A stretch of DNA of 64,000 nt from NCBI RefSeq assembly GCF_027257195.1, contig NZ_JAPDFS010000003.1, positions 393,018 through 457,017 on the forward strand, given 5' to 3'. The notes beneath the pieces were generated by a model. That model did not search any database, was not told where the DNA came from, and worked only from the letters and a program-made list of their open reading frames with translations. Shown in pieces: positions 1,851 through 16,460 of the stretch; the stretch's first letter is position 1, and every line of letters starts with the position of its first letter. This DNA is from Halorubrum sp. F4 (GTDB lineage: Archaea; Halobacteriota; Halobacteria; Halobacteriales; Haloferacaceae). The position numbers and the translations under genes were made by a program.

Positions 1851-1860
1851 GAATTTAAAC
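1851..1860 (+). promoter_or_regulatory. TATA box of the giant gene pair
   Basis: GAATTTAAAC preceded by a purine-rich BRE-like ACCGAA, in an AT-rich pocket of otherwise GC-rich sequence. It would start transcription near 1880-1885 and give a leader of about 110 bases before the ATG at 1995. Inferred from sequence only. Confidence 0.55.
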
Positions 1861-1994: not shown

Positions 1995-4900
1995 ATGACA
2001 CACCTCGCACTGACACCCCTCGGCGTTGACGGCGACGCACAGCCCCGCGACGAGTATCCCGACCTTTCCCCCGGGATTCACCTCCGATGGGCGTTTCCCC
2101 CACACCGCGGCTTCCCCCGTGGCGGCTACTACCTCTTCAGGCGTCGCCATCGGGAAGCGCCCCGGCGGCCGCGAGTTCGGCTGACCGCCGCGTTGGATCA
2201 CGACCCCGCAAAGCCCCTCACCGAGGCACACACGGAGGCGGGCCATCGGTTCGGTTTCCCCGAACACGAGCGCGTCTTTCACGTCCAGCACGACGGCAGT
2301 GATGCGGTGATGCCGGTCGGAAGCGATCCGGTTCCGATCGAGCTGCCGGAGCCGTCGTACGCAGTCGACGTATCCGTCGACGTCGAGGGGAGCGATCCGG
2401 TCGTCGTACGGGCGCTCACCGACGACCGCGTCGTCGACGAGACGGAGACGACGGGCGGGCAAGTCAGGCTCTCCGGCGACCGGATCGACGCCGTCTCCTG
2501 TACCGGCGGCGAGCCGAAACGAACCCCCGTGTTCGTGACCGAAGTCGCGCCGCACTTCGTCTCCTCGACCCTCGGTCGGGGATGGAGCCTCGTTCCGAAC
2601 GCACCGGCTCCGATCCGTCTCCCGCTTTCTCACCCCGACTACGCACCCGTCAGCGCAGGCACGACGATCGGCGACCTGGACGAGGCCCGGACGATCGCGA
2701 GGGATCGGATCGAGTACGGCCCGCCCGATCGACTCGTCGACGGCGAGGAGTCCGCTTCCGGAACGGGAACGGTCACCGTCTCGGCGGGTTCCTCGTACGC
2801 GTTCGCGAGCGATCTGTCTCCCGACGACGACCTCGTCGGTGACTGTCTGCGGATCGACGGCGACTCCACCGCGTACGGGATCACCGACGTCGGCGAAGCG
2901 CCCGACGGGTCCACCAGACTCGTCCTCTCCCGGCCGTACCGCGGGACCGGCGGCAGCGACCTGGCGTACGACCTCCTCGCCGACGAGTTCGCCTCGCTCC
3001 ACGACACGCTCTCGGTTCTGGTCGACGAGGGGGGCTCCGGCGGTGGGGGCGGAAGCGGTGGGGGCGGGAGCGGTGGCGGTGGGGGCGGGATGGCGAACCG
3101 GACGCTGCCGGCGTTTCGCGCTCCGGACGGCCTAGCGGTCGTGAACGGCGACGGGTCGACCGTCTTCGGTGGAACCGCCGACGGGTCGGCGGTCGACGGC
3201 TGGAACACCGACTGGACGACCGACCTCGTGGGATCGCGACTCCGCCTCTCGACGGGGTCACACACGGACGTGGTCGTGGTCCATGGCCGGCCGTACGTGT
3301 TCACCGCTAACGCCGGTTGGGACGACGCGACGGTCGGCCGCCGGATCCGCATCGAGGACGACCGTGAGCTGTATCGGATCGTCGACGTTGCGCACTTCCG
3401 GGTCGGCGATCGGACTCTCGAGATATGTACACTCGATCGGCCAGTGAGCGGCCCGTACTACGGCGACCCCGTCGACTGCGTGGTCTACGAGGACCACACC
3501 CACCGGATCGGGTCGGTCGACGAGGCCGACCAACGGCTCCACCTTCGCGGCCGGGTCGGGCTCCGAGCGACGCTGCCCCGCCGCTACCTGATCCACCCGG
3601 CGGCGACCGACGCCGCCGCGGCGTCGCTTCCCACGCAGAACCCGCTCGACGCCGTCCTGACGGCCGCCACCGACCCGGCGGCCGCACAGGCGCTCGGTCT
3701 CTACTGGATCGACGACACGATCGACGACGACGTCTCGTACGACTACATGATCGTCGCCGATCACGCCGACGCGATCCCACCGTTGAGAACGGGGGCGGAC
3801 GCGATGCCGGCGCTCGAAGGGCTTCCCTCCTCGCCGACGACGCCGGGCCTCGATCGGTACATCGCCTTCGACGTGAGCCGGAGCGACGGCGACCCGCTCC
3901 CGGCGCCCGAGGAACCGATGGCGTTCGAGCTGCCGGTCACGGCCGACACCGCGAACGCCGTCGGGCTCCGGTGGGACATGGACGACCTCGACGCGACCGC
4001 CCCGGACGTGGCGACGCCCGTCAAGTACCACCTCTGGCGGTGGAGCGGGGACGAGCCGTGGCGACTGGAGGAGAACTCCGACCTCGCCGGCTACGACCCG
4101 ATCACGGCGAGCTCGAGGGCGGATCTCCTCGCGGACGCGACGCCGATACTCGCGACCGCGCCGGCGGGCCCGCCGCGAACGCCGGAGGGGTGGCCGAACG
4201 TCCGGTTACACGGGACCGACGGCGACCTCGCCGACGGCTGGCACAGCTACCGCGTCGTCGGCGTCGACGTGTTCGGGCGGTTCAGCGAGGCGAGCGAGCC
4301 GGCGACGTGGTACACGACCGACCCGTCGGCGCCGCTCGAGCCGCCGACGCCCGCGCAGAGCACGCATCGTGACCTGGCGATCCGGGTCGAGGACGACTCT
4401 TCGCCCCCGTCGCCGGCCGCCGTCGAGGCCGCCGCGCTCGATCCGGCCGCGTACGACGACCCCGGCGAACTGGTCGACGCCGACCCCGACGAACTCCCGG
4501 CGAACCGCCACGTCAGGGGGGACGAGGCGTATCGAACCTGGCGGGCGAACGATCCCGAGCGGGTCGGCATTCGGGTCCGGTGGACCTGGCCGGCGGGACA
4601 CGCCGACCTCGCCGACGACGTCGACGCCTTCGAGTTGTACGTCTCGCCCGGCCGGACGAACGCCTTCCTCGGGGAGGTGCTCGACGTCGATCCGACCGCG
4701 ACCGGCTACGAGGTCACGGTCGATCTCGACGACGCGTTCGACCCCGATCCCGGGACGCTCGCGGGCACGAGGCTCCTCATCGACGACGCCGCGTTTCCGG
4801 TTCGAGCGGCGACGGCGGCGGCCGATGGCGTGACGCTCACGGTTCGACCGCCGGTTCCGGGCGGGGACGAAGCGGCGACCGACGGCGGTTCGAACGAGAC

Positions 4901-7205
4901 GGACGGCGGCGAGACGGCAACCGATGGCGGCGGGACGGCAACCGATGGCGGCGAGGCGGACGGACTCGTCCCCGAAACGGGCGGCCGCGCAGCCGATGTC
5001 GTCGCGATGTTCCCACAGGTCGGGGGAGCACTCGACGTCGATCGATCGGAACCGGCGGTCGAGGACCGCTGTACCGTCTCGGTGCCGGCCCACTACGACG
5101 CCGGAACGGTCTCCGTCGACCCGGCGTCGACGGCGACGGTGGACGGAACGACCGGAACCGTTGTCGACGGTCACGACACCGGCTGGACCGAGGCGTTGGA
5201 GGGCGAGCGGTTCCGGTCGGTCGACGACGACGTCGTCTACACCGTCGCGCGCGTCGACGGGCCGACGGAACTGGTGTTGGACCGGGAGGTCGCGTCGTCC
5301 ACGCCGGGCGAGCGCCTGCCGTACCGGATCGATCACCCGCTGTGGGACGACGAGCGGGACCCCGACAGCTGGGACGCCAACGTCGCGACGGTCGCGTACG
5401 ATGACGCGAGCGCGCTGGTCGGCACGGACGGGCTCACCGGAACGGACGACGGGACGCGCGTCTACGAGGCGTTCGTCGACGCACCCGCGAGCGGGGAGGG
5501 CGAGGCGTTCGCGCCGTCACTCTCGATGCCGACCGTCTACGCCGACGTCGCGGTGACGGCCGTCGACGACGCCGGACACGAGAGCGCCGTCGACGCGACC
5601 GCGACGATCGCCAGGGTTCTCCACAAGACGCCGGCGACGCCGTCGGTTGCCGTGGAGCCGGCCTCGTTCCATCACGCGACCGAACCGGACTACGACGGCG
5701 AGTCGGCGTACACCGTCCGGTGGGAGCCCGACGCGGACGCCGGCGACGACTACGGCTATCACGTCTTCCGTGCCTTGGACGAGACGCTGTTCGCGACCGA
5801 CTGGGGACGACGGCTCGCCGCCGCGGACGACGGCGATGGGAACGGCGACAGCACCGGCAACGGCGACGCCCCGGAGCGCTCGCTCGACCCCGACGACCCG
5901 GCCCACGACCGCTTCTTCCCGCCCGCCTACCGCGGCGACGACGAGGCGGCCGAGACGGCACGCGAAACGATCGCCGCGGAGGTGAACGCCTTCACGACCC
6001 TCGCGGAGGACGCCGTTTCGGGCGACGGAAACGACGCGGCCGATCCGGACGAGGGGGTCGTGGAGTCGGCGATGGAGGCGTATCGTCGCCTCCGGAGGCC
6101 GGTCGACCTGGACGACGGGGGCGACCCGGGTGGTGCTGACGAGGAGAGCGACGGGGACGACGGAGGCGATGCGGACGACGGGGGGAGCGACGCGGACGAC
6201 GGAGGCGACGCGGACGAGGAGTCCACCGACGCCGCGCTTCTCCGACCGGCGACGCTCGCCACGCTCGCCGCGCTTCCGGGCAACGAGGCGGCCTTCTCCC
6301 AGCGAACCGTCGACGCGCTCGCGCCGAGCGACCACCCGGACCGCGTCGGTCCGGACGGCGACCCCGACGACGAGCCGGACGACGACCTGTGCGCCTGGGT
6401 CGACCGGTTCGACGGCGGCTCACGGAACGTCTACTGCTATCGGGTCGGCACGGTCGACGACGCCGGGAACCGCAGCGACGCCGGCGGGACCGACGGTCCG
6501 CCGATGAGCTACCCGACGATGCCGGTCCGGTCCGCCGGCGGGGTGGCACCGAGACGACCGCGGATCGTCGAGGCCGCCGCCGGCCACGCCGACTCGGACG
6601 CGCCCGACGACCGGGCGATCACCCTGCGGATCGCGGGCGTCGACGATCCGACGCTCGAGAAACTGCTCGTCTATCGGTCTCGTGACCGCGAGCGGGCGAC
6701 GGATCTCCGCCGGGCCGACGAACCCGAGGTGGTTGCGGACCCCGCCGCGCCACGGGACTCGGCGGCCGCCGGCGCGGTCGCGGTCGAGGACGGCGTGCTC
6801 GCGTGGGTCGACGCCGACGTCGAACCGTTCACGACGACGTACTATCGGGTCGTCGGGGTCGGGGAGTCCGGCGCGCACACGGAGCCGACCGCGGTCGCGT
6901 CCGCGGAGGCGTTCGATCGCTCGCCGCCGGACCCGCCGACGTGGGACGACGAGGACCCCGCGGTCGACGACGGCGCGGTGACGCTGTCGTGGAGCCCCGC
7001 CACGGGAGCGCCGTCGGACCTCCGCTATCAGCTACACCGCCGCCCCCACGGCGGCGACGGGGACGACTGGCGTCCCGTGAGCCCCTGGCTCGACCGGACC
7101 ACGTACGAGGACGGGAGTCGCGACCCGAACACGACGTACGATTACCGACTGCTCGTCCTGCGGCCGACCGGCGGCCGTGACGATCTGACCCTGACGGAGG
7201 TGTGA
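1995..7205 (+). CDS. Giant multidomain beta-rich protein of unknown function (1736 aa)
   Basis: Function not recognised. The N-terminus carries a distinctive block (GIHLRWAFPPHRGFPRGGYYLFRR, split here as GIHLRWAFP and PRGGYYLFRR). At least three copies of a roughly 70-residue module follow, with a pattern of tryptophan, 'G.R.RI..D...Y.I..V' and 'L.L.RP', encoded near 2758-2960, 3130-3480 and 5100-5340. This pattern is familiar from phage tail and fibre proteins. Fibronectin-III-like segments lie near 4560-4860, 5640-5800 and 6950-7190. Low-complexity linkers include a glycine-serine stretch at 3031-3090 and acidic DGG repeats at 4900-4970 and 6110-6225. There is no signal peptide and no membrane segment. 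The stop overlaps the start region of the next giant gene, so the two are translationally linked. The gene pair has its own promoter and operator. A cell-surface, tail-like or adhesion role is inference only. Confidence 0.8.
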   Translation: MTHLALTPLGVDGDAQPRDEYPDLSPGIHLRWAFPPHRGFPRGGYYLFRRRHREAPRRPRVRLTAALDHDPAKPLTEAHTEAGHRFGFPEHERVFHVQHDGSDAVMPVGSDPVPIELPEPSYAVDVSVDVEGSDPVVVRALTDDRVVDETETTGGQVRLSGDRIDAVSCTGGEPKRTPVFVTEVAPHFVSSTLGRGWSLVPNAPAPIRLPLSHPDYAPVSAGTTIGDLDEARTIARDRIEYGPPDRLVDGEESASGTGTVTVSAGSSYAFASDLSPDDDLVGDCLRIDGDSTAYGITDVGEAPDGSTRLVLSRPYRGTGGSDLAYDLLADEFASLHDTLSVLVDEGGSGGGGGSGGGGSGGGGGGMANRTLPAFRAPDGLAVVNGDGSTVFGGTADGSAVDGWNTDWTTDLVGSRLRLSTGSHTDVVVVHGRPYVFTANAGWDDATVGRRIRIEDDRELYRIVDVAHFRVGDRTLEICTLDRPVSGPYYGDPVDCVVYEDHTHRIGSVDEADQRLHLRGRVGLRATLPRRYLIHPAATDAAAASLPTQNPLDAVLTAATDPAAAQALGLYWIDDTIDDDVSYDYMIVADHADAIPPLRTGADAMPALEGLPSSPTTPGLDRYIAFDVSRSDGDPLPAPEEPMAFELPVTADTANAVGLRWDMDDLDATAPDVATPVKYHLWRWSGDEPWRLEENSDLAGYDPITASSRADLLADATPILATAPAGPPRTPEGWPNVRLHGTDGDLADGWHSYRVVGVDVFGRFSEASEPATWYTTDPSAPLEPPTPAQSTHRDLAIRVEDDSSPPSPAAVEAAALDPAAYDDPGELVDADPDELPANRHVRGDEAYRTWRANDPERVGIRVRWTWPAGHADLADDVDAFELYVSPGRTNAFLGEVLDVDPTATGYEVTVDLDDAFDPDPGTLAGTRLLIDDAAFPVRAATAAADGVTLTVRPPVPGGDEAATDGGSNETDGGETATDGGGTATDGGEADGLVPETGGRAADVVAMFPQVGGALDVDRSEPAVEDRCTVSVPAHYDAGTVSVDPASTATVDGTTGTVVDGHDTGWTEALEGERFRSVDDDVVYTVARVDGPTELVLDREVASSTPGERLPYRIDHPLWDDERDPDSWDANVATVAYDDASALVGTDGLTGTDDGTRVYEAFVDAPASGEGEAFAPSLSMPTVYADVAVTAVDDAGHESAVDATATIARVLHKTPATPSVAVEPASFHHATEPDYDGESAYTVRWEPDADAGDDYGYHVFRALDETLFATDWGRRLAAADDGDGNGDSTGNGDAPERSLDPDDPAHDRFFPPAYRGDDEAAETARETIAAEVNAFTTLAEDAVSGDGNDAADPDEGVVESAMEAYRRLRRPVDLDDGGDPGGADEESDGDDGGDADDGGSDADDGGDADEESTDAALLRPATLATLAALPGNEAAFSQRTVDALAPSDHPDRVGPDGDPDDEPDDDLCAWVDRFDGGSRNVYCYRVGTVDDAGNRSDAGGTDGPPMSYPTMPVRSAGGVAPRRPRIVEAAAGHADSDAPDDRAITLRIAGVDDPTLEKLLVYRSRDRERATDLRRADEPEVVADPAAPRDSAAAGAVAVEDGVLAWVDADVEPFTTTYYRVVGVGESGAHTEPTAVASAEAFDRSPPDPPTWDDEDPAVDDGAVTLSWSPATGAPSDLRYQLHRRPHGGDGDDWRPVSPWLDRTTYEDGSRDPNTTYDYRLLVLRPTGGRDDLTLTEV

Positions 7206-7207
7206 CC

Positions 7208-10200
7208 ATGCCGACGACACGATCATCCACGGCCGACGCGGAACCGCTCGACGAGCTCATGGCGGACGAGTTCGACCCCATCGGCGTCTCGACCGACAAC
7301 CTGCCCGACTTCCTCGGCGAGGTGCTGGTGGACGACTACGACTACGAGGACGGCGAGGCGAGCGTTTCGCTGCTCGTCGCCGGCGAGCCCGCCCTCTCGA
7401 TCCCCGGCAGCGCCGGCGTCACGTTCGTTCTCGGCGAGCCGGGAACCGGCGAGACGACGGTCGACGCCACCCTGATCGTCGACGCCGAGTGGGAGCTCAC
7501 GATCGAATCGGTCCGACTCACGGCCCGGGTCGACGGCGACGTGCTCCGGCCGACACCGGACGAGGACGGCACGAGGCCGGAGCACCTCGACGTGACGACG
7601 ACCGTCGACGTCGTCGTCGACCACGCGTGGTCGCTCGACGTGAACGGCTTCGAGGGCGTCGACTTGCCGCCCGCGGAGATCGGACACACTGGCGTCGTGA
7701 TCGAGGCGACCGACGTCGTCCTCGACGTCTCGCCGACGGGGCTCTCCCCGGCGATCGCAGACCACGACGATTTCGACGGCTCGTCCGTCGACGACGGCTT
7801 CGTCGGGCTCTTCGTCGGCGACGCGTCGGTCTCCTTCCCCGATCGCTGGCCGGTGTCCGGAGACGTCGTGTTACGCGGGACCGCGATCGGCTCCGGCGGC
7901 CTCAGCGGGACGATCGGGTACGAACCCGACGTCTCCTTCGACCCCGACGCGGAGACGTACACCGGCGAGGGTGCGGGGTCGCTCGGCGACCTCGCGTTCG
8001 CGGTCACCGCGGTCGAGGTGGAGTTCGTCCAGACCGCGCTGTCGACCTGTTCGATCGCGGGCGAGCTGTTCGTCCCGTACTTCGACGAACGGGTCGTCGT
8101 CGACCTCGCGTTCGACATGGACGGCACGCTCACGGCGCGGCTGGTCGGTCTCCCCGACCCTGGGACCGAGTCGGTCGGCGAGGTCACGGACGAGGACCTC
8201 GTCTCGCTCGAGGTGCCCGGCGTCGCCGCGTTCGACGTCGACTCGTTCGGGCTGGTCGTCGCGGGCGACGCGGAGGGGGTCGGCGTCTCGGTCGCCGGCA
8301 CCCTTCGACCGCTCGTCGGCGAGGGGGGCCCCGACGTCGACCCCGGCGTCGACGACCTCGACCTCCCGACGATCGAAGTGCCGGAGATAACGATCGACAG
8401 CGACGGCGAGGTCGACTTCGAGGGGAGCTGGATCGAACTGCCGTCACAGCGGTCGACCGAGCTCCAGGGGATCGAAATCGAGGTGACGAAACTCGGGTTC
8501 GGCACCCGCGACGACGGCTGGCGGTACGTCGCGTTCGGTGGGTCGATCGCCATCGTCGAGGGGATCCCCGCCGGCGCGTCGACCGAGGGACTCCGGGTCG
8601 CGTGGAACCCCGACGGCGACGGCGTCGAGATGACCTTCGACCGCATCGGCGTCGAGTTCGAGGTGCCGGACGCCCTCGCGTTCTCCGGATCGATCGCCTT
8701 CGACCCCGCGGACGAACGGTACTACGGCGACGTCGACCTCGACCTGCTCGCCCTCGACACCTCGATCTCGGCGACGCTGATCGTCGGCCGCGAGACCGGA
8801 CCGGACGGGGAGGCGTTCACCTTCCTCGGGGTCTCGCTCGACGCGAGCCTCCCGGCGGGTATTCCCCTCTTCTCGACCGGGCTGTCCATCTACGGCATGG
8901 GCGGGCTGTACGCGCACAACATGGAGCCGCACCGCGGCGACCGCGAGTGGTACGCCCTGAGCGGCGAGGCCGACGAGAGCTGGTATCACGCGAGCGGCGA
9001 GCCCCGCGTCGACGACTTCGACGCCCAGTGGCGACCCAGTGCCGGCGCGTTCGCGTTCGGCGCCGGGGTCACGCTCGGCACGAGCGCTGACAACGGCTTC
9101 GCGCTCGGCTCCGACCTGCTGCTCGTCATCGCGTTCCCCGGCCCCGTGATCATGCTCGAGGGACGTGCCGACGTCCTCTCTTCGGGTGCGGACGTCGACG
9201 CGGAGGGCGCGTTACGCGCGCTCGCGGTGCTCGACGGCGACGCCGGAAACGTGACCTTCGGCATCGACGCCGCGTTCACGAAGCGGTCGGCGGACGCGAC
9301 CCTCCTCGACGTGCGGGCCGGCGTCGAGGCGCACTACGACTTCGCCGACCCGTCCGCCTGGTATCTGAACCTCGGTCGGCGCGAGCCGCGGGAGGACCGC
9401 GTGCGGGCGGAGGCGCTGCTTTTCACCGCGGAGGGGTACCTGATGATCGACGCCGACCGGGTCGCCACCGGCGCCCGCGCCGGCTACGACGAATCGTTCG
9501 AGTTCGGCCCGCTCGCCGTCTCCTTCGAGGCGTGGGTCGCCGGACACGTCCGGCTCAGCTGGCAGCCGACCCACTTCTCTGGTGAGGTGCTTCTCCACGG
9601 CTCGGTCGAGCTGTCCGCGTTCGGCGTCGGCGCGTCGATCACCGCGGACGCCGCGCTCGGCGCCGAGGCGCTCGATCCGTTCCACCTACACGGCGACGTG
9701 CGCGTCGCGCTCGAGACGCCCTGGCCGCTGCCCGACCCGGAGGCGAGCGTCTCGCTCGAGTGGGGGCCCGTGCCGAGTCCGCCGCCGGTGCCCGCCCCGC
9801 TGGACGGCGTCGCGCTCGGCCACGAACGCGTGACGACGCGGTGGCCGCTCCCGCGCTCCGAGTCGCTCCTGACGCCCGACTACGCGACGGCGGGCGAGGG
9901 CGGCGAGAACGGCGACCGGCTGCTCGGCTACGACGAGGGGCTGCCGACGCCGCCCGACGACGGGACCGTCCCGCCGGAGGACGTCCCCGTCGTCCCCCCG
10001 GACGTGCGGCCCGAATTGACCTTCTCGAAGTCCGTGATCGACGACGGCGACGTCGGCGTCAACGCGTCGACGGCGGGCCCCGAGTGGCGGCTCGTCGGCG
10101 ACCCGACCGACGACGGCCCCGTCGAGGCGCGTTACGGCCTGGAGGACGTCTCGCTGGAGCGGTGGGACGCCGACGCCGGCGGGTGGGTCGACGACGGCCC

Positions 10201-13200
10201 CGTCTTCGGTTCCTGGGCGCCGCTGCCCGACACGCGGATCGGCGCGGGAGGCGCCCCGGACGAGGCGGGCACGCCGCCGACCGCGAACACGAAACTCCGG
10301 CTCTGGTCCGTCAACCCGTACGACTACGGGCGGAACACGGGCGGCGCGTGGGAGGAGGGGATCGACCGCCTCCTCGGTACGTACCCGTGTTACGCCGACG
10401 GCCGGTGCTTCCGGCTCGCCGGCACCGAGGTGGGCGAGGAGCTGGTCCGTGAGACGGCCGACGAGGTGACGGTCACCCACGAGGAGGAGGGATGGCCCGC
10501 GTTCGTCTCGAACACGACCGGCGCGCTCCCGTCGGTCGCGACGCTCCCGACGGACGAGGGTACGTTCGAGGCGCTGACGTACGCCGGCCCCAGCCGAAAG
10601 GACGGCGGCGGCGCGACGCGGTCGGTGGTGGTGGATCTCGACGGGAGCCATCGATCCGTCGAGGTCACGCTCGTGCTCCGGCGGGATCACACACACCTCA
10701 CCGCGACCGCGTACGGTCACGGGGTCGTCGAGGACACGGACATCCGTTCGGTCCCGCAAGAGGTCTTCGACCTCCGGCCAGACGAGGACGACCACGTCGC
10801 CAAGGCCGAACCGATCGGCTTCGAGCGACACACGGTCACGTTCGACACCGAGCCGGGGATCGACCGGGTCGTGTTGACCTCGACCGGCACCTTCGGGATC
10901 GTCGAGGTCTGTCAGGCGACCGTCCCGATCGGAACCCTGGGAGCCGGCGGCGTCGAAGGCGCCGCACACGTGCGGGACCGACTCGATCGATGGAGCGACG
11001 AGCCACACGTACTGGAGCCGAACGAGCGGTATCGGCTCGTGGTCGACACCGTCGTCGAGGCCCGTGGCGTCGCCGGCGGACCGCTCGCCGACTTCGAGCA
11101 CCGCTGGCCCGACGACGGGACGATGCGGGAGGTCGCGTACTTCGAGACGAGCGGGCCGCCGGCGCTCGCGGACGTGAGCACGCCCCTGACACCCGGCGGC
11201 AACGGCGGGAACGGTACCGACGTGGACGAGGTGCGCTCGTTCGACACGCTCTCGCGATACGTCGAGGGGAGCGTCCCGGAGAGCGTGACCCCCGACGGGG
11301 AGCGTCCGTCGACGCCACGGCCGGTGTACCGCGCCTACGACGTCGGCGTCAGGTTCGGGGAGGCGTACGTCGAGACGCTGTACGCGATGGCCGACCGCGA
11401 CCTTCGACTCCAGGTGTACGACGCGGACGACCGGCCGGTCCGGGACGTCGACGGGCGGCTCGGCTCGGCCAGATGGGGCAAGGCGGGGAGCCGCGCGCTG
11501 AAGCGACACGACCGGACGTGGCTCTCCAGGGTCGCCGAGGAGTGTGGCGGCGTCGACGAGGAGACGCTTCCGCACGAGGACGTCCTCGAGGAGCGGGACC
11601 CGCGGCTCGTGTTCGACCCGGACGCGACGCTCGAGGCCCGGCTCGTTCCGGCACTCCTGCATGAGACGTTCGACGGCGGGAGCGATCGGTGGTCCGTGAC
11701 CGGCACCGCCGACGTGACCACCGACGGCCACGACGGCCGCGACGGCGACGCCGCGACGGTGACGTCGACGGTAGACGGCGAGGCGACCCTCGCCCTCGAC
11801 GACGACGCGGACCTCGGCGTCCTCTCGCCGAACGACGACGCCGTGTGGTTCCGCGGCGACCGCGAGCGCCCCGACGGAACCTATCGGATCGTCGGCGTGG
11901 ACGCGACCGACGGGACCGTCACGCTGGCGGGCGTTCCGGACCTGGGCGACGACGGCACCTGGCGGATCGCTCCCGAACGCCGGGTGGAGCTGTCGTCGGC
12001 CGTCGGCGCGGACGCCACGGTGCGTCTCACGGACGCGCCCGGCGACTCGTCGCCGGCGACGTGGGACGACTACGCCGTGACGACGAACCTCCGGTTCACG
12101 GGCGGCGCGAGCGGCACGGCCGGCGTCGTCGTCCGCGACGCCCCCGACGCGGGCCGCGGCTATCGGTTCGAGGTCGACGCGGACGAGGACGTCTACCGGC
12201 TCGTTCGTCTCGACGGTGACGCGTCGACGACGCTCGCGTCGACCGACGCGCCGCCGATCGAGGACGGCATGGACGTCGGCCTCCGCATACAGGTCATCGG
12301 CCGTCGGGTGGACGTCTTCGTCGACGACGAGCCGACGTTCGTCGTCGACGATCCGGACCCGTTGGGGCCGGGCGGCGTCGCCGTCCGCCTCGCGGACGTT
12401 CAGGGCCTCGTCGTGCCCGAGGTGCTCGTCGAGGGATTCGACACCGGGTCACCCGTCGCGTACCGGTTCCCGTTCACGACCTCGCTTTTCGCCGACTTCG
12501 TCCATCAGGTCCACAGCTTCCCGGGGGAGACGTTCGAGGTCGCCTCCGAAGCCGCGCTCGAGGCGGTTCCCGTGGACACGCCCGAGGCTGCGGTCCCGCT
12601 TCCGGACGCCGATCCGGACCCGCCGGGGGAGGCGGAGGCCCGGGCGTACGATCGCGTCTTCCACGCGTTGACGCCAGGCGATCGACCGTCGATCGACGGG
12701 CTCGACGCCACGTGGCTCCTCGACGGGGACGCGCCGACCGCGCTCCTCGTGCGCAGCCCGGAACCGATCGACTGGACGCGGACGACCGCGGCGGTGAGCT
12801 GTAGCGAGACGGCGCTCCCGCCGGAGACCGAACCCGACGTGACGAAGGTGACGGACGTGCGGTACGGGGCGCCAGAGTCGAGCGCGGACGACGGGGAAGC
12901 CACGGCGGACGGGGACGGGAGCGTCGAAGTGCTCTTCGCCGAAACGGAACCTCCCGAGGGACACGTCGTCGAACGACGGCTGACCGGCGAGGAGGGGTTC
13001 ACCCCCGAGCCCGTCGGCGAGGGGATCGACGACGAGTTCCTCGACCGGAGCGTCCTCGCCCCCTACCGACGGGTCCCCACCCCGGAGCCCGGAGACGTCG
13101 GCGACCTGCCGACGCCGGGGGACCCGTTCGACGGGTTCGTGGGCGAGATCCTGCCGCCCGACGTCGACCCGGACGGGCCGATCCCGGGCTCCGTCCCGGA

Positions 13201-15178
13201 CGGCCCGTTTTTCGATCCGAGCGTCGATCCGGACGGTCCGAACGTCGGCCCGGACGCCCCGGACAGCGACCCGGACGCCCCGGACAGCGACCCGAGCGAC
13301 GGTTCATCCGCGTCGCGACCGTTCGACCCGGCGATCGACGACGACCGGCTCTCGGCCGTCTCCGAGCGGATCGGGCGGGCGCTCCGCGGTCGAAACGCCG
13401 ACGTCGAGGTGGACCCCGCGAACCCGCTGGCCGCGCTGGAGGCGGCGGCGGTCGATCCGGACCTCGTCGACGACGTCGGCCTCACCGACGAGGAGTACGA
13501 GCTTATCGAGGCGGCCGCCGCGGTTCGAGCGCCCGGAGACCGGGTACCCCCGCGTGAGGACCCCGCCGAGGGGTCGGTCCGGACCGCGTCGACGTCGTCC
13601 GAGGTCGCGTCGCTCGCGGCGGCGGCGGAAGGCGACGCCCGAACGCCCGATCCGGACGCGGAGTGGACCGTCGACGACGACGGCCTCTCGGCGAGCACCG
13701 AGGGCTGGACCGGGCTCGTTCGTCCCGTCGAGGAGACACCGAGCGTGTGGGAAACGACGGTCTCGCCGGGCGCGTCCGGACGGGCTGGGCTCCTCTTCCG
13801 CCTCCACGACGAGACCCACTACCACGCGGTCGCCGTCGGCGACGGTGAGGTCGCCCTCCAGCGTCGGACCGGCGACGGCGTCGAGGCCCTTCGGCGAGTG
13901 CCGTTCGAGCACGGGTCGGAGGCGGGTCCGCTGACGCTCCGCGTTCGTGCGGACGACACGACGCTGTGGGTCTCCGTCGACGACGTTCCGCTGTTCGGCG
14001 TCGACGACGAGTTCCCTGGCGGCGGTACAGCTGGGGTGTTCACCACCGCCGACGACGCGACGTTCACGTCGCTGTCGGTTCACTCGTCGGTCGCCGACGC
14101 ACGACTCCTGGCGGACGCGTTCGCGGAGGACGACCCGGTCGACGCGGACGGAACCGCCGAGAGCGACGCGTCCGAGGAACCGTACGCCTCCGGCGGGGAG
14201 GACGTCGCCGGCTGGCAGGTGGTCGACGAGCCGCCGTACACGACCCGTCACTCGCGCTGGCGCACCCGCGACGGCACGCTCGAACAGACGAGCAACCTGT
14301 ACGGCTTCGTCGGGAACCGCTTCCGACAGCCGGGGACGTACGCGGTGACCGGCGACGACGCGTGGAGCGACTACCGGCTCTTCGTTCGCCTCCGCTCCGA
14401 GGACGACGACGCGATCGGTGCCGTCTTCCGGTACCGTGGTCACGACGAGTTCTATCGGTTCTCGATGGACCACGAGCGCGGATACCGTCGACTCACCCGC
14501 CGTTCGAACGGTGAGACGACGGTGTTGTGGGCCGACGACGAGCCGTACGAGGTCGGTCGCGAGTACCTCCTCACGATCGACTGCGTGGACGACGAGATCG
14601 TCGGCTACCTCGACGGTGAACGGCTGTTCGCGGTCACCGACCCGGTCATCGACGCCGGGAGGGTCGGCGTCTACTGCCGGGCCAACGTCGGCGCGCGGTT
14701 CGAGGACGTCCGCGTCACCGCACCGGGAGACGGCTGGGTGCCGTACCACGTCTTCGAGTCGGAACCGGCGCTTCCGGCGGGCACCCGCGTCCGGATCGCC
14801 GAGCAGCCGCCGACGGACGCCGACCTGCCGGCAGGCGTGGTCGGTCGAGCGCGAAACGGGGACGCGGCCGGCCGGCTCCCGCCGACGCCGACGGCGTTCA
14901 GGCTGCGTGGCCCGCGGGGAACGGTCGGACACCGTCGAACCGTCCCGCCCGCGGACGCCTTCGATTCGTGTGAAGACGTGCGGGTAGTCCGGAGCGCGGA
15001 CGGCACCGGAACGGTGCTGTTTCCCGACGTCGACGACGACGTGAGCACGCTACGTCTGCGGTTGACGTATCGTCGCTCGATCGACGACGACGTCCGTACC
15101 CGGAACGGAAGCGACGAACCGGAGGAGACGGCCATCGACGTCCCACTGCCGCCGACGGCCGACGAGTCGGGGGAGTGA
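7208..15178 (+). CDS. Giant beta-rich protein with concanavalin-like domains (about 2656 aa)
   Basis: Function not recognised. The ATG at 7208 is chosen; a GTG at 7202, inside the end of the upstream gene, is the alternative. Residues about 1-900 consist of repeated beta-strand units, including a block with YGMGGLYAHNMEP followed by WYALSG near 8890-8990. The second half has at least three lectin/LamG-like jelly-roll domains, near residues 1486-1748, 2149-2296 and 2334-2505. These share a pattern of 'V.VRD....YRFEVD', 'VD.FVDDEP.F.V.D' and 'G.GGVAVR' or close variants. A proline- and aspartate-rich linker with DPDAPDS repeats is encoded at 13150-13310. There is no signal peptide, no membrane anchor and no catalytic motif that I can see. 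It is co-transcribed with the preceding giant gene. The architecture suggests a large extracellular or particle-associated binding protein; this is inference. Confidence 0.8.
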   Translation: MPTTRSSTADAEPLDELMADEFDPIGVSTDNLPDFLGEVLVDDYDYEDGEASVSLLVAGEPALSIPGSAGVTFVLGEPGTGETTVDATLIVDAEWELTIESVRLTARVDGDVLRPTPDEDGTRPEHLDVTTTVDVVVDHAWSLDVNGFEGVDLPPAEIGHTGVVIEATDVVLDVSPTGLSPAIADHDDFDGSSVDDGFVGLFVGDASVSFPDRWPVSGDVVLRGTAIGSGGLSGTIGYEPDVSFDPDAETYTGEGAGSLGDLAFAVTAVEVEFVQTALSTCSIAGELFVPYFDERVVVDLAFDMDGTLTARLVGLPDPGTESVGEVTDEDLVSLEVPGVAAFDVDSFGLVVAGDAEGVGVSVAGTLRPLVGEGGPDVDPGVDDLDLPTIEVPEITIDSDGEVDFEGSWIELPSQRSTELQGIEIEVTKLGFGTRDDGWRYVAFGGSIAIVEGIPAGASTEGLRVAWNPDGDGVEMTFDRIGVEFEVPDALAFSGSIAFDPADERYYGDVDLDLLALDTSISATLIVGRETGPDGEAFTFLGVSLDASLPAGIPLFSTGLSIYGMGGLYAHNMEPHRGDREWYALSGEADESWYHASGEPRVDDFDAQWRPSAGAFAFGAGVTLGTSADNGFALGSDLLLVIAFPGPVIMLEGRADVLSSGADVDAEGALRALAVLDGDAGNVTFGIDAAFTKRSADATLLDVRAGVEAHYDFADPSAWYLNLGRREPREDRVRAEALLFTAEGYLMIDADRVATGARAGYDESFEFGPLAVSFEAWVAGHVRLSWQPTHFSGEVLLHGSVELSAFGVGASITADAALGAEALDPFHLHGDVRVALETPWPLPDPEASVSLEWGPVPSPPPVPAPLDGVALGHERVTTRWPLPRSESLLTPDYATAGEGGENGDRLLGYDEGLPTPPDDGTVPPEDVPVVPPDVRPELTFSKSVIDDGDVGVNASTAGPEWRLVGDPTDDGPVEARYGLEDVSLERWDADAGGWVDDGPVFGSWAPLPDTRIGAGGAPDEAGTPPTANTKLRLWSVNPYDYGRNTGGAWEEGIDRLLGTYPCYADGRCFRLAGTEVGEELVRETADEVTVTHEEEGWPAFVSNTTGALPSVATLPTDEGTFEALTYAGPSRKDGGGATRSVVVDLDGSHRSVEVTLVLRRDHTHLTATAYGHGVVEDTDIRSVPQEVFDLRPDEDDHVAKAEPIGFERHTVTFDTEPGIDRVVLTSTGTFGIVEVCQATVPIGTLGAGGVEGAAHVRDRLDRWSDEPHVLEPNERYRLVVDTVVEARGVAGGPLADFEHRWPDDGTMREVAYFETSGPPALADVSTPLTPGGNGGNGTDVDEVRSFDTLSRYVEGSVPESVTPDGERPSTPRPVYRAYDVGVRFGEAYVETLYAMADRDLRLQVYDADDRPVRDVDGRLGSARWGKAGSRALKRHDRTWLSRVAEECGGVDEETLPHEDVLEERDPRLVFDPDATLEARLVPALLHETFDGGSDRWSVTGTADVTTDGHDGRDGDAATVTSTVDGEATLALDDDADLGVLSPNDDAVWFRGDRERPDGTYRIVGVDATDGTVTLAGVPDLGDDGTWRIAPERRVELSSAVGADATVRLTDAPGDSSPATWDDYAVTTNLRFTGGASGTAGVVVRDAPDAGRGYRFEVDADEDVYRLVRLDGDASTTLASTDAPPIEDGMDVGLRIQVIGRRVDVFVDDEPTFVVDDPDPLGPGGVAVRLADVQGLVVPEVLVEGFDTGSPVAYRFPFTTSLFADFVHQVHSFPGETFEVASEAALEAVPVDTPEAAVPLPDADPDPPGEAEARAYDRVFHALTPGDRPSIDGLDATWLLDGDAPTALLVRSPEPIDWTRTTAAVSCSETALPPETEPDVTKVTDVRYGAPESSADDGEATADGDGSVEVLFAETEPPEGHVVERRLTGEEGFTPEPVGEGIDDEFLDRSVLAPYRRVPTPEPGDVGDLPTPGDPFDGFVGEILPPDVDPDGPIPGSVPDGPFFDPSVDPDGPNVGPDAPDSDPDAPDSDPSDGSSASRPFDPAIDDDRLSAVSERIGRALRGRNADVEVDPANPLAALEAAAVDPDLVDDVGLTDEEYELIEAAAAVRAPGDRVPPREDPAEGSVRTASTSSEVASLAAAAEGDARTPDPDAEWTVDDDGLSASTEGWTGLVRPVEETPSVWETTVSPGASGRAGLLFRLHDETHYHAVAVGDGEVALQRRTGDGVEALRRVPFEHGSEAGPLTLRVRADDTTLWVSVDDVPLFGVDDEFPGGGTAGVFTTADDATFTSLSVHSSVADARLLADAFAEDDPVDADGTAESDASEEPYASGGEDVAGWQVVDEPPYTTRHSRWRTRDGTLEQTSNLYGFVGNRFRQPGTYAVTGDDAWSDYRLFVRLRSEDDDAIGAVFRYRGHDEFYRFSMDHERGYRRLTRRSNGETTVLWADDEPYEVGREYLLTIDCVDDEIVGYLDGERLFAVTDPVIDAGRVGVYCRANVGARFEDVRVTAPGDGWVPYHVFESEPALPAGTRVRIAEQPPTDADLPAGVVGRARNGDAAGRLPPTPTAFRLRGPRGTVGHRRTVPPADAFDSCEDVRVVRSADGTGTVLFPDVDDDVSTLRLRLTYRRSIDDDVRTRNGSDEPEETAIDVPLPPTADESGE

Positions 15179-15184
15179 GCGGGG

Positions 15185-15282
15185 GAGGCCGCCGCGGACG
15201 CGCTCGAACACCTCACGGAGCCGAGGTCGACTGGATCGTCGCCGGCGGCGTCGGCTTCGGCTTCGGACTGCCCGAAGAGTAG
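15185..15282 (+). pseudogene. Possible C-terminal remnant of a decayed small gene
   Basis: Two frames read like one peptide broken by a shift near 15220. Frame one gives EAAADALEHLTEP; the second gives EVDWIVAGGVGFGFGLPEE and a stop at 15280-15282. Both halves have protein-like composition, with an amphipathic helix followed by a glycine-rich hydrophobic end. No start codon was found. This could be chance in GC-rich DNA. Confidence 0.22.
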
Positions 15283-15298
15283 CGGCGGAGCCGATCCG

Positions 15299-15305
15299 TT
15301 ATATT
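15299..15305 (+). promoter_or_regulatory. TATA box of the M29 aminopeptidase gene
   Basis: TTATATT, about 25 bases before the ATG at 15327, consistent with a leaderless transcript and supporting that start codon. Confidence 0.6.
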
Positions 15306-15326
15306 CCCGGCACGCGAGCCCCACGC

Positions 15327-16460
15327 ATGGACGAACGCGTACGCGAACACGCGGAGGTGCTCGTCGACTGGAGCGCGCGGGTCGACCCGGGAGAACACGT
15401 CGTCGTGAGCGTCGCCGAGGACGCCCACGACCTCGGCGTCGCGGTCGCGGAGGCGCTCGGCGAACGGGGCGCGACCGTGACGACGCTGTACGGTTCCGAC
15501 GAGGTCTCCCGTGCCTACCTGAAGGGAGCCGAGGCGGGTGCCGAGGGCGGGACGCCCGACTTCGACGAGGACTCCGCGGTCGACCTGGCGATCTTCGAGG
15601 CTGCCGACGTCTACCTCCGGCTGGGCGGCGGCCGCAACACGGCCGCGACCGCGGACGTCGACCGCGAGACGCGTCAGGCCTACGCCAGAGCCAGAAAGGG
15701 CGTCCGGGAGGCGCGGATGGACACCGACTGGGTGTCGACGGTCCACCCCACCCGGAGCCTCGCCCAGCAGGCCGGGATGGCCCACGAGGAGTACGAGGAC
15801 TTCGTCTACGACGCGATCCTCCGCGACTGGGAGGAGTTGGCCGGAGAGATGGCCCACATGAAGGGAGTCCTCGACGACGGCGACGAGGTCCGGATCGTCA
15901 CCGAGCGTGAGGACGACCCCGACACCGACCTCCGGATGTCGATCGCGGGCCGGACCGCCGTCAACTCCGCGGCGTCCGTCGCGTACGACTCCCACAACCT
16001 GCCGAGCGGCGAGGTGTTCACCGCCCCCTACGACGCCGAGGGCGAGGTCTTCTTCGACGTGCCGATGACGATCGACGCGACCCGCGTCCGAAACGTCCGC
16101 CTCGTCTTCGAGGACGGCGAGGTGGTCGACTTCGCCGCGGAGGCGGGTGAGGACGCGCTCGCGAGCGTGCTCGAGACGGACCCCGGCGCGCGGCGGCTCG
16201 GTGAGTTAGGGATCGGGATGAACCGCGGGATCGACCGGTTCACCGACTCGATCCTCTTCGACGAGAAGATGGGGGACACGGTCCACCTCGCGCTCGGCCG
16301 CGCCTACGACGCCTGCCTGCCCGACGGGGAATCGGGCAACGAGAGCGCGGTCCACGTCGACATGATAAGCGACGTGAGCGCGGAGTCGACGATGAGCGTC
16401 GACGGCGAGGTCGTCCAGCGCGACGGGACCTTCCGGTGGGAGGACGGCTTCGAGGGATAA
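15327..16460 (+). CDS. Aminopeptidase, M29 (aminopeptidase T/II) family
   Basis: Cytoplasmic metal-dependent exopeptidase that removes N-terminal residues from peptides. At 377 residues it is close to the usual M29 length of about 370-410. Family landmarks are visible: NLPSGEVFTAPYD, carrying a metal-ligand glutamate; NRGIDRFTDSILFDEKMGDTVHLALGRAYD, with the conserved histidine, encoded around 16225-16310; and a C-terminal VHVDMISD. The TATA box 25 bases upstream supports the ATG start. It is transcribed alone and converges on the lactate oxidation genes. It is one of two peptidases in the first 17 kb, but the two are not linked in one operon. Confidence 0.88.
   Translation: MDERVREHAEVLVDWSARVDPGEHVVVSVAEDAHDLGVAVAEALGERGATVTTLYGSDEVSRAYLKGAEAGAEGGTPDFDEDSAVDLAIFEAADVYLRLGGGRNTAATADVDRETRQAYARARKGVREARMDTDWVSTVHPTRSLAQQAGMAHEEYEDFVYDAILRDWEELAGEMAHMKGVLDDGDEVRIVTEREDDPDTDLRMSIAGRTAVNSAASVAYDSHNLPSGEVFTAPYDAEGEVFFDVPMTIDATRVRNVRLVFEDGEVVDFAAEAGEDALASVLETDPGARRLGELGIGMNRGIDRFTDSILFDEKMGDTVHLALGRAYDACLPDGESGNESAVHVDMISDVSAESTMSVDGEVVQRDGTFRWEDGFEG

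Follow-up and report, generated by a model that had tools for sequence, protein, structure and literature searches.

A pair of giant overlapping haloarchaeal genes belongs to a mobile cassette that carries a phospholipase D-like gene in some other carriers

Introduction

Between two peptidase genes of Halorubrum sp. F4 lie two giant genes, here called A and B, and the locus raises the question of what such a pair encodes and how it came to be there. The first-pass annotation of the 64,000-nucleotide stretch of DNA analysed here (the window) had suggested an undescribed surface, particle or contact system built of tail-like and lectin-like modules. To answer this question we compared the layout, domains, distribution and genomic surroundings of the two genes in archaea and bacteria.

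Results

Gene A (1995–7205, + strand, as for all coding features below) encodes 1,736 amino acids and gene B (7202–15178) encodes 2,658 amino acids, and the two overlap by 4 nt, in agreement with the first-pass annotation of two overlapping genes. The flanks are indeed ordinary peptidase genes. The left border of the cassette is the oligoendopeptidase F gene (Peptidase M3, 162–1766; Pfam PF01432, E 3.1e-75), and the right border is the M29 aminopeptidase gene (15327–16460; Pfam PF02073, E 9.9e-55). A LUD-domain gene is found farther to the right, and a PAS-type kinase, an acetyltransferase, an RND-type transporter and a LutB-like gene were named by eye from the translations of other neighbors. 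Among the neighbors that were read, we recognised no gene for export, lysis or immunity, and neither A nor B matched the PADLOC defence models at E<=0.01. The dN/dS values were 0.34 for A and 0.38 for B in comparison with the related locus L004, 0.40 for both genes with L003, and 0.42 and 0.39, respectively, with L030. Hence, A and B are real genes under purifying constraint (dN/dS 0.34–0.42). Their GC content is 72%; upstream of them it is 65%, and in the part of the window to their right 68%. Their GC3 is 0.88 (A) and 0.91 (B), and the peptidase genes have values of 0.95 and 0.93.

Protein A contains small repeated beta modules but no known domain, and no family was found above a Pfam cut-off. 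One module covers aa 255–332 (2757–2990), further ones lie in the middle at aa 384–502 (3144–3500), and another follows at aa 1045–1119 (5127–5351). A block at aa 547–886 (3633–4652) served as the survey probe A4. A glycine-rich linker was read from the sequence at about aa 348–365 (3036–3089), and the antibody-linker matches obtained there were rejected as chance hits due to low complexity. The repeated modules described in the first-pass annotation as phage-tail-style are present, but their phage-tail reading found no support in profile searches. The fibronectin-like reading found no profile support either, as no FN3 family was detected in eight A proteins at E<=0.05.

Protein B contains a DUF6603-like core at aa 426–856 (8477–9769), which is 44% identical to the Mycetohabitans protein. 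Its match to Pfam PF20248 (E 1.5e-10) reached 40.7 bits over two stretches, above the curated cut-off of 27 bits, while in a six-frame search of the genome a single stretch scored 18.1 bits, below this cut-off. The best stretch covers model positions 36–267, and another covers 328–445, of the 502-position model. PF20248 matched six of eight B proteins at E<=0.01. The core includes a conserved hydrophobic stretch around an FPGP motif (aa 634–652; 9101–9157), which could form a hairpin. This stretch is the hydropathy maximum in each of the eight B proteins (1.7–2.0), with F645, P646, G647 and P648 invariant among them. Because these values are higher than the hydropathy threshold commonly applied to membrane helices, a membrane anchor at this position is possible.

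The claim of at least three concanavalin-like domains in B also held. Domain 1 lies within aa 1484–1754 (11651–12463), domain 2 at aa 2165–2290 (13694–14071) and domain 3 at aa 2332–2504 (14195–14713). The first of them resembles the sugar-binding module of levanase, known as CBM66; the phmmer match for aa 1617–1720 had E 9e-4. The profile matches to the levanase structures (PDB 4azz, 4b1l, 4b1m) had E values from 6e-10, obtained for 4azz, to 1e-11, and PF06439 was just over its cut-off in B of the window. The levanase-like alignment spans only ~90 residues, and glycan binding by B is a prediction from this likeness. In contrast to levanase, the module sits inside a 2,658-aa protein, and no glycoside hydrolase was recognised beside B.

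To describe the distribution of the pair, a profile of the A block was searched against 392 genomes of Halobacteria, of which eight matched, including that of the window. One of these, G345 (locus L033), matched only partially, at 41 of 326 positions. Frequent separation of the two genes, which would have counted against the first-pass annotation, was not observed: full-length B adjoins A in all seven full-length archaeal copies. Using tblastn, A was found in four of 72,556 plasmid records, all from Mycetohabitans, and the same four plasmids hold B over at least 80% of the length of the Mycetohabitans protein. Mycetohabitans are endofungal, that is fungus-dwelling, bacteria. Across carriers, the identities to A of the window were 87, 57, 38, 35, 37, 30 and 30%, and those to B, in the same order, were 88, 62, 38, 37, 40, 32 and 33%, closely parallel to A. 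Hence, A and B form one unit. In the three of the four Mycetohabitans regions that were read (L005–L007), the cassette is located near toxin–antitoxin genes and transposases or recombinases.

The right-hand peptidase gene allowed us to examine the insertion site. The M29 gene was found in all 30 genus members, with 28 orthologous loci (L034–L061), the other two (L062, L063) being paralogues at about half identity. B is located upstream of M29 in two of the 28 orthologous loci, those of the window's genome and of G349. In 15 of the 28, peptidase F lies within 1.5 kb upstream of M29 without the cassette, and the remaining 11, with neither B nor peptidase F in the 1.5-kb flank, neither support nor contradict this arrangement. 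The closeness of peptidase F and M29 in these 15 related genomes marks the empty insertion site. In L003 and L004 the cassette has peptidase F on its left and M29 on its right, and so occupies the same site as in the window. Some relatives have a small gene between the two peptidase genes, and L004 retains this gene on the right side of its cassette. The 20 kb examined around the cassettes of L030, which belongs to the same genus, and of L018, L031 and L032 contain neither peptidase gene, which places these cassettes elsewhere. The tree of the B core grouped L031 with L032, which are from different families, and not L032 with L018, which are from the same one, with modest, unstarred support (84/99); as this tree is unrooted, it gives no direction of transfer. 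The A–B set is thus a horizontally moving accessory cassette with a patchy distribution.

The comparison of carriers showed a further gene. In the three archaeal carriers that belong to other genera (L018, L031, L032), and also in the three Mycetohabitans regions that were read, A and B are separated by a phospholipase D-like (PLD) gene of 509–544 amino acids. The junctions of A, PLD and B in these six loci are overlaps of 4 nt or 1 nt, or gaps of 5–18 nt, where the B start in L032 was taken as the ATG at 9800, the longest reading frame beginning earlier, and where the public annotation of L006 places the PLD start later than the reading frame used here. The PLD proteins were over the cut-off for PF13091 and PF00614, and the nearest solved structures were phospholipases D (phospholipase D, D alpha 1, D1 and D2; E 2e-22). 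Both H-x-K motifs are kept in all five aligned proteins, two of which are near-identical, and G-S-x-N follows the second motif. A difference from the PLD superfamily is that the aspartate of H-x-K(x)4-D is in place only in the second motif, while that of the first is displaced. Weak matches to DrmC/MkoB in PADLOC arise through the shared PLD fold.

A PLD profile was compared with 12 chosen genomes. The gene was recovered from the genomes of L018, L031 and L032, whose own sequences are part of the profile. It was not detected in any of the four carriers within the window's genus (the window's genome included), in the partial carrier G345, or in four members of this genus without a known A gene. 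Since PLD holds the middle position in carriers of other genera and was not detected in those of the window's genus, the A–B pair of the window is probably a reduced form of an A–PLD–B cassette. With the tree unrooted, loss of PLD in this genus is the simplest reading, the alternative being gain elsewhere. Relatives of PLD also exist without the cassette: 49 plasmid records matched the Mycetohabitans protein, of which 45 showed less than 60% identity, compared with the four records that contain A.

The first-pass annotation had reported that neither protein has a signal peptide, and the hydropathy profiles agree with this: no hydrophobic N-terminus was detected in eight A, eight B and five PLD proteins, the maximum in the first 60 residues of these 21 proteins being 0.89, with two controls, of which only the RND-type one showed a helix inside the first 60 residues. 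An internal stretch above 1.6 was found once in each of the eight B proteins, and one A protein barely exceeded this value (1.63). That the archaeal and the Gram-negative members alike lack a signal speaks against ordinary secretion in both groups.

To place B in a wider family, PF20248 was searched in 294 genomes of the phylum, five of which matched, three over the cut-off. Residues 11–316 of B resemble the classical DUF6603 protein of L017 (E 1.9e-11), as does B of L018 (E 3e-31). On the other hand, B matches only part of the PF20248 model, the profile of the B core did not match the classical DUF6603 proteins of L015–L017 at E<=1, and the genes for these proteins sit with other giant partners, unlike the A–B arrangement. 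In these three sampled archaea the classical genes lie among other giant reading frames; Pfam matches were obtained for one of six scanned neighbors from L015 and L017 (decapeptide repeats, in L015), and the single neighbor scanned from L016 gave none. B-like cores with a further large gene behind them were also found in Azospirillum oryzae (L008), Paracoccus aminophilus (L009), Azospirillum thermophilum (L010) and G345, and the comparison suggests that the second gene in L033 and L008 is remotely related to A. The B-like gene of G345 precedes the A-like gene, which is the reverse of the order in the window, and very large genes with hydrophobic starts, as judged by eye, are present nearby.

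The region upstream of A was searched for regulatory elements. A TTTAAA sequence at 1854–1859 (+ strand) could be the TATA-box-like element of gene A; it is also TTTAAA in L003 and TTTAAG in L004. It is followed by a perfect 22-bp palindrome, TTTCGTGA-N6-TCACGAAA, at 1866–1887. L003 has the identical palindrome and L004 an imperfect one, and none was noticed in front of A in the remaining carriers. Among the 10 sites listed in the window's genome, the one at 1866–1887 is the only one with fewer than three mismatches, the other nine having three, and the backward-read control returned no sites. This palindrome is possibly an operator, that is a putative repressor site, for A. A second inverted repeat at 1948–1980, directly 5′ of the A start, has 11-bp arms with one mismatch, is kept in L003 and has 8-bp arms in L004; it is possibly a leader hairpin. 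No terminator-like site was found at 14900–15400.

Discussion

The gene order, the packing, the distribution, the domains and the lack of a hydrophobic N-terminus are direct observations, and with them in view we tentatively propose, as a reading that is quite possible, that the locus encodes a giant glycan-binding complex without a recognised export signal, which worked with a phospholipase D at membranes. A and B would be two giant subunits of a mobile accessory cassette, the fuller form of which is A–PLD–B. Inside the cell the proteins would assemble into a large beta-rich complex, in which A could be a stalk or scaffold, while B would bind glycans through its concanavalin-like domains and face lipid with the DUF6603 core and its conserved FPGP stretch. 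PLD might then act on phospholipid brought near by the complex. The complex would leave the cell without Sec or Tat, for example by lysis, and act on contact with other cells. The lineage of the window would have lost PLD, while the glycan-binding scaffold was kept under purifying selection.

The strongest point against delivery of PLD is that the PLD-less version in the window is still under purifying selection. If PLD is the active part, the retention of this version means that PLD is either dispensable or the role is different. A more far-reaching form of the proposal, in which A–PLD–B is an undescribed self-contained giant complex that has no export signals, occurs in haloarchaea as well as in endofungal bacteria, binds glycans, acts on membranes, carries PLD to other cells, crosses domains as a cassette and can shed its enzyme without giving up the binding apparatus, appears improbable. 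A comparable setting is provided by Tle5, the phospholipase D effector of type VI secretion systems, because a PLD enzyme that serves an accessory, contact-type trait would act alike. However, no part of such a system was recognised beside the cassette genes, and the likeness drawn here is one of setting.

A role in adhesion or in a matrix, where A and B would act as giant lectins, on the cell surface or outside the cell, with an exopolysaccharide (perhaps fructan) as their ligand and no part in killing, and PLD would be a lipid-remodelling accessory, is in our judgment rather unlikely. It would account for the three lectin-like domains of B, for the repeated beta modules and for the fact that no PLD was found in carriers of the window's genus. 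It would also agree with the synthesis of fructan by some haloarchaea, as reported in PMC8066391. However, neither the archaeal nor the bacterial members have a hydrophobic N-terminus. In this they differ from halomucin of Haloquadratum, likewise a giant haloarchaeal protein, for which a predicted signal sequence is described in PMC4378361; A, B and PLD showed no such sequence.

The missing export signal in archaea and in a Gram-negative bacterium also fits a cytosolic site in both, and the proteins might build a giant beta-rich assembly around a store of lipid or polysaccharide, which it would coat or organise while PLD worked on the membrane of that store. The hydrophobic stretch of the DUF6603 core and the PLD partner in other carriers could be explained in this way. 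We nevertheless consider such a role unlikely, since levanase-type lectin domains usually meet extracellular sugar, and the patchy, mobile, plasmid-borne distribution suits an accessory contact trait better than storage.

It is highly improbable that the proteins are part of a phage-tail-like or contractile injection particle, because the resemblance of the modules to tail repeats by eye, a weak match to an F2-pyocin side fibre (E 0.14) and the existence of contractile systems in haloarchaea (PMC11566945) are outweighed by the ordinary neighboring genes, the absence of a PF04984 match (the single sheath family tried) in the window's genome, which is 96% complete, the absence of a PHROGs match for the pair, the absence of a tblastn relative of A or B among 50,697 phage records at E<=1e-5, and the failure of all candidate stretches from viral contigs (85 and 115) to be confirmed.

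No characterised family was found for A, and B is only DUF6603-like and lectin-like, so that an undescribed giant glycan-binding system, predicted from sequence, is a fair reading. The words particle and tail-like found no support, and the first-pass annotation was thus confirmed in most but not all of its observations and supported in part of its interpretation. DUF6603 proteins are annotated in bacteria and archaea without a known role, and a search for "DUF6603" or "PF20248" returned no paper among open-licence PubMed Central papers. The cassette, with its PLD, sugar-binding domains, empty site and haloarchaeal members, makes the role of DUF6603 directly testable, and it documents a gene set common to Archaea and endofungal bacteria. 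A search for Mycetohabitans rhizoxinica together with plasmid and phospholipase D likewise returned no paper from the same collection. A PLD-like relative of the middle gene was also observed on a plasmid of Streptomyces sp. NBC_01724 (L065), where it adjoins a gene of DUF2235, which is presumably a lipase-effector family.
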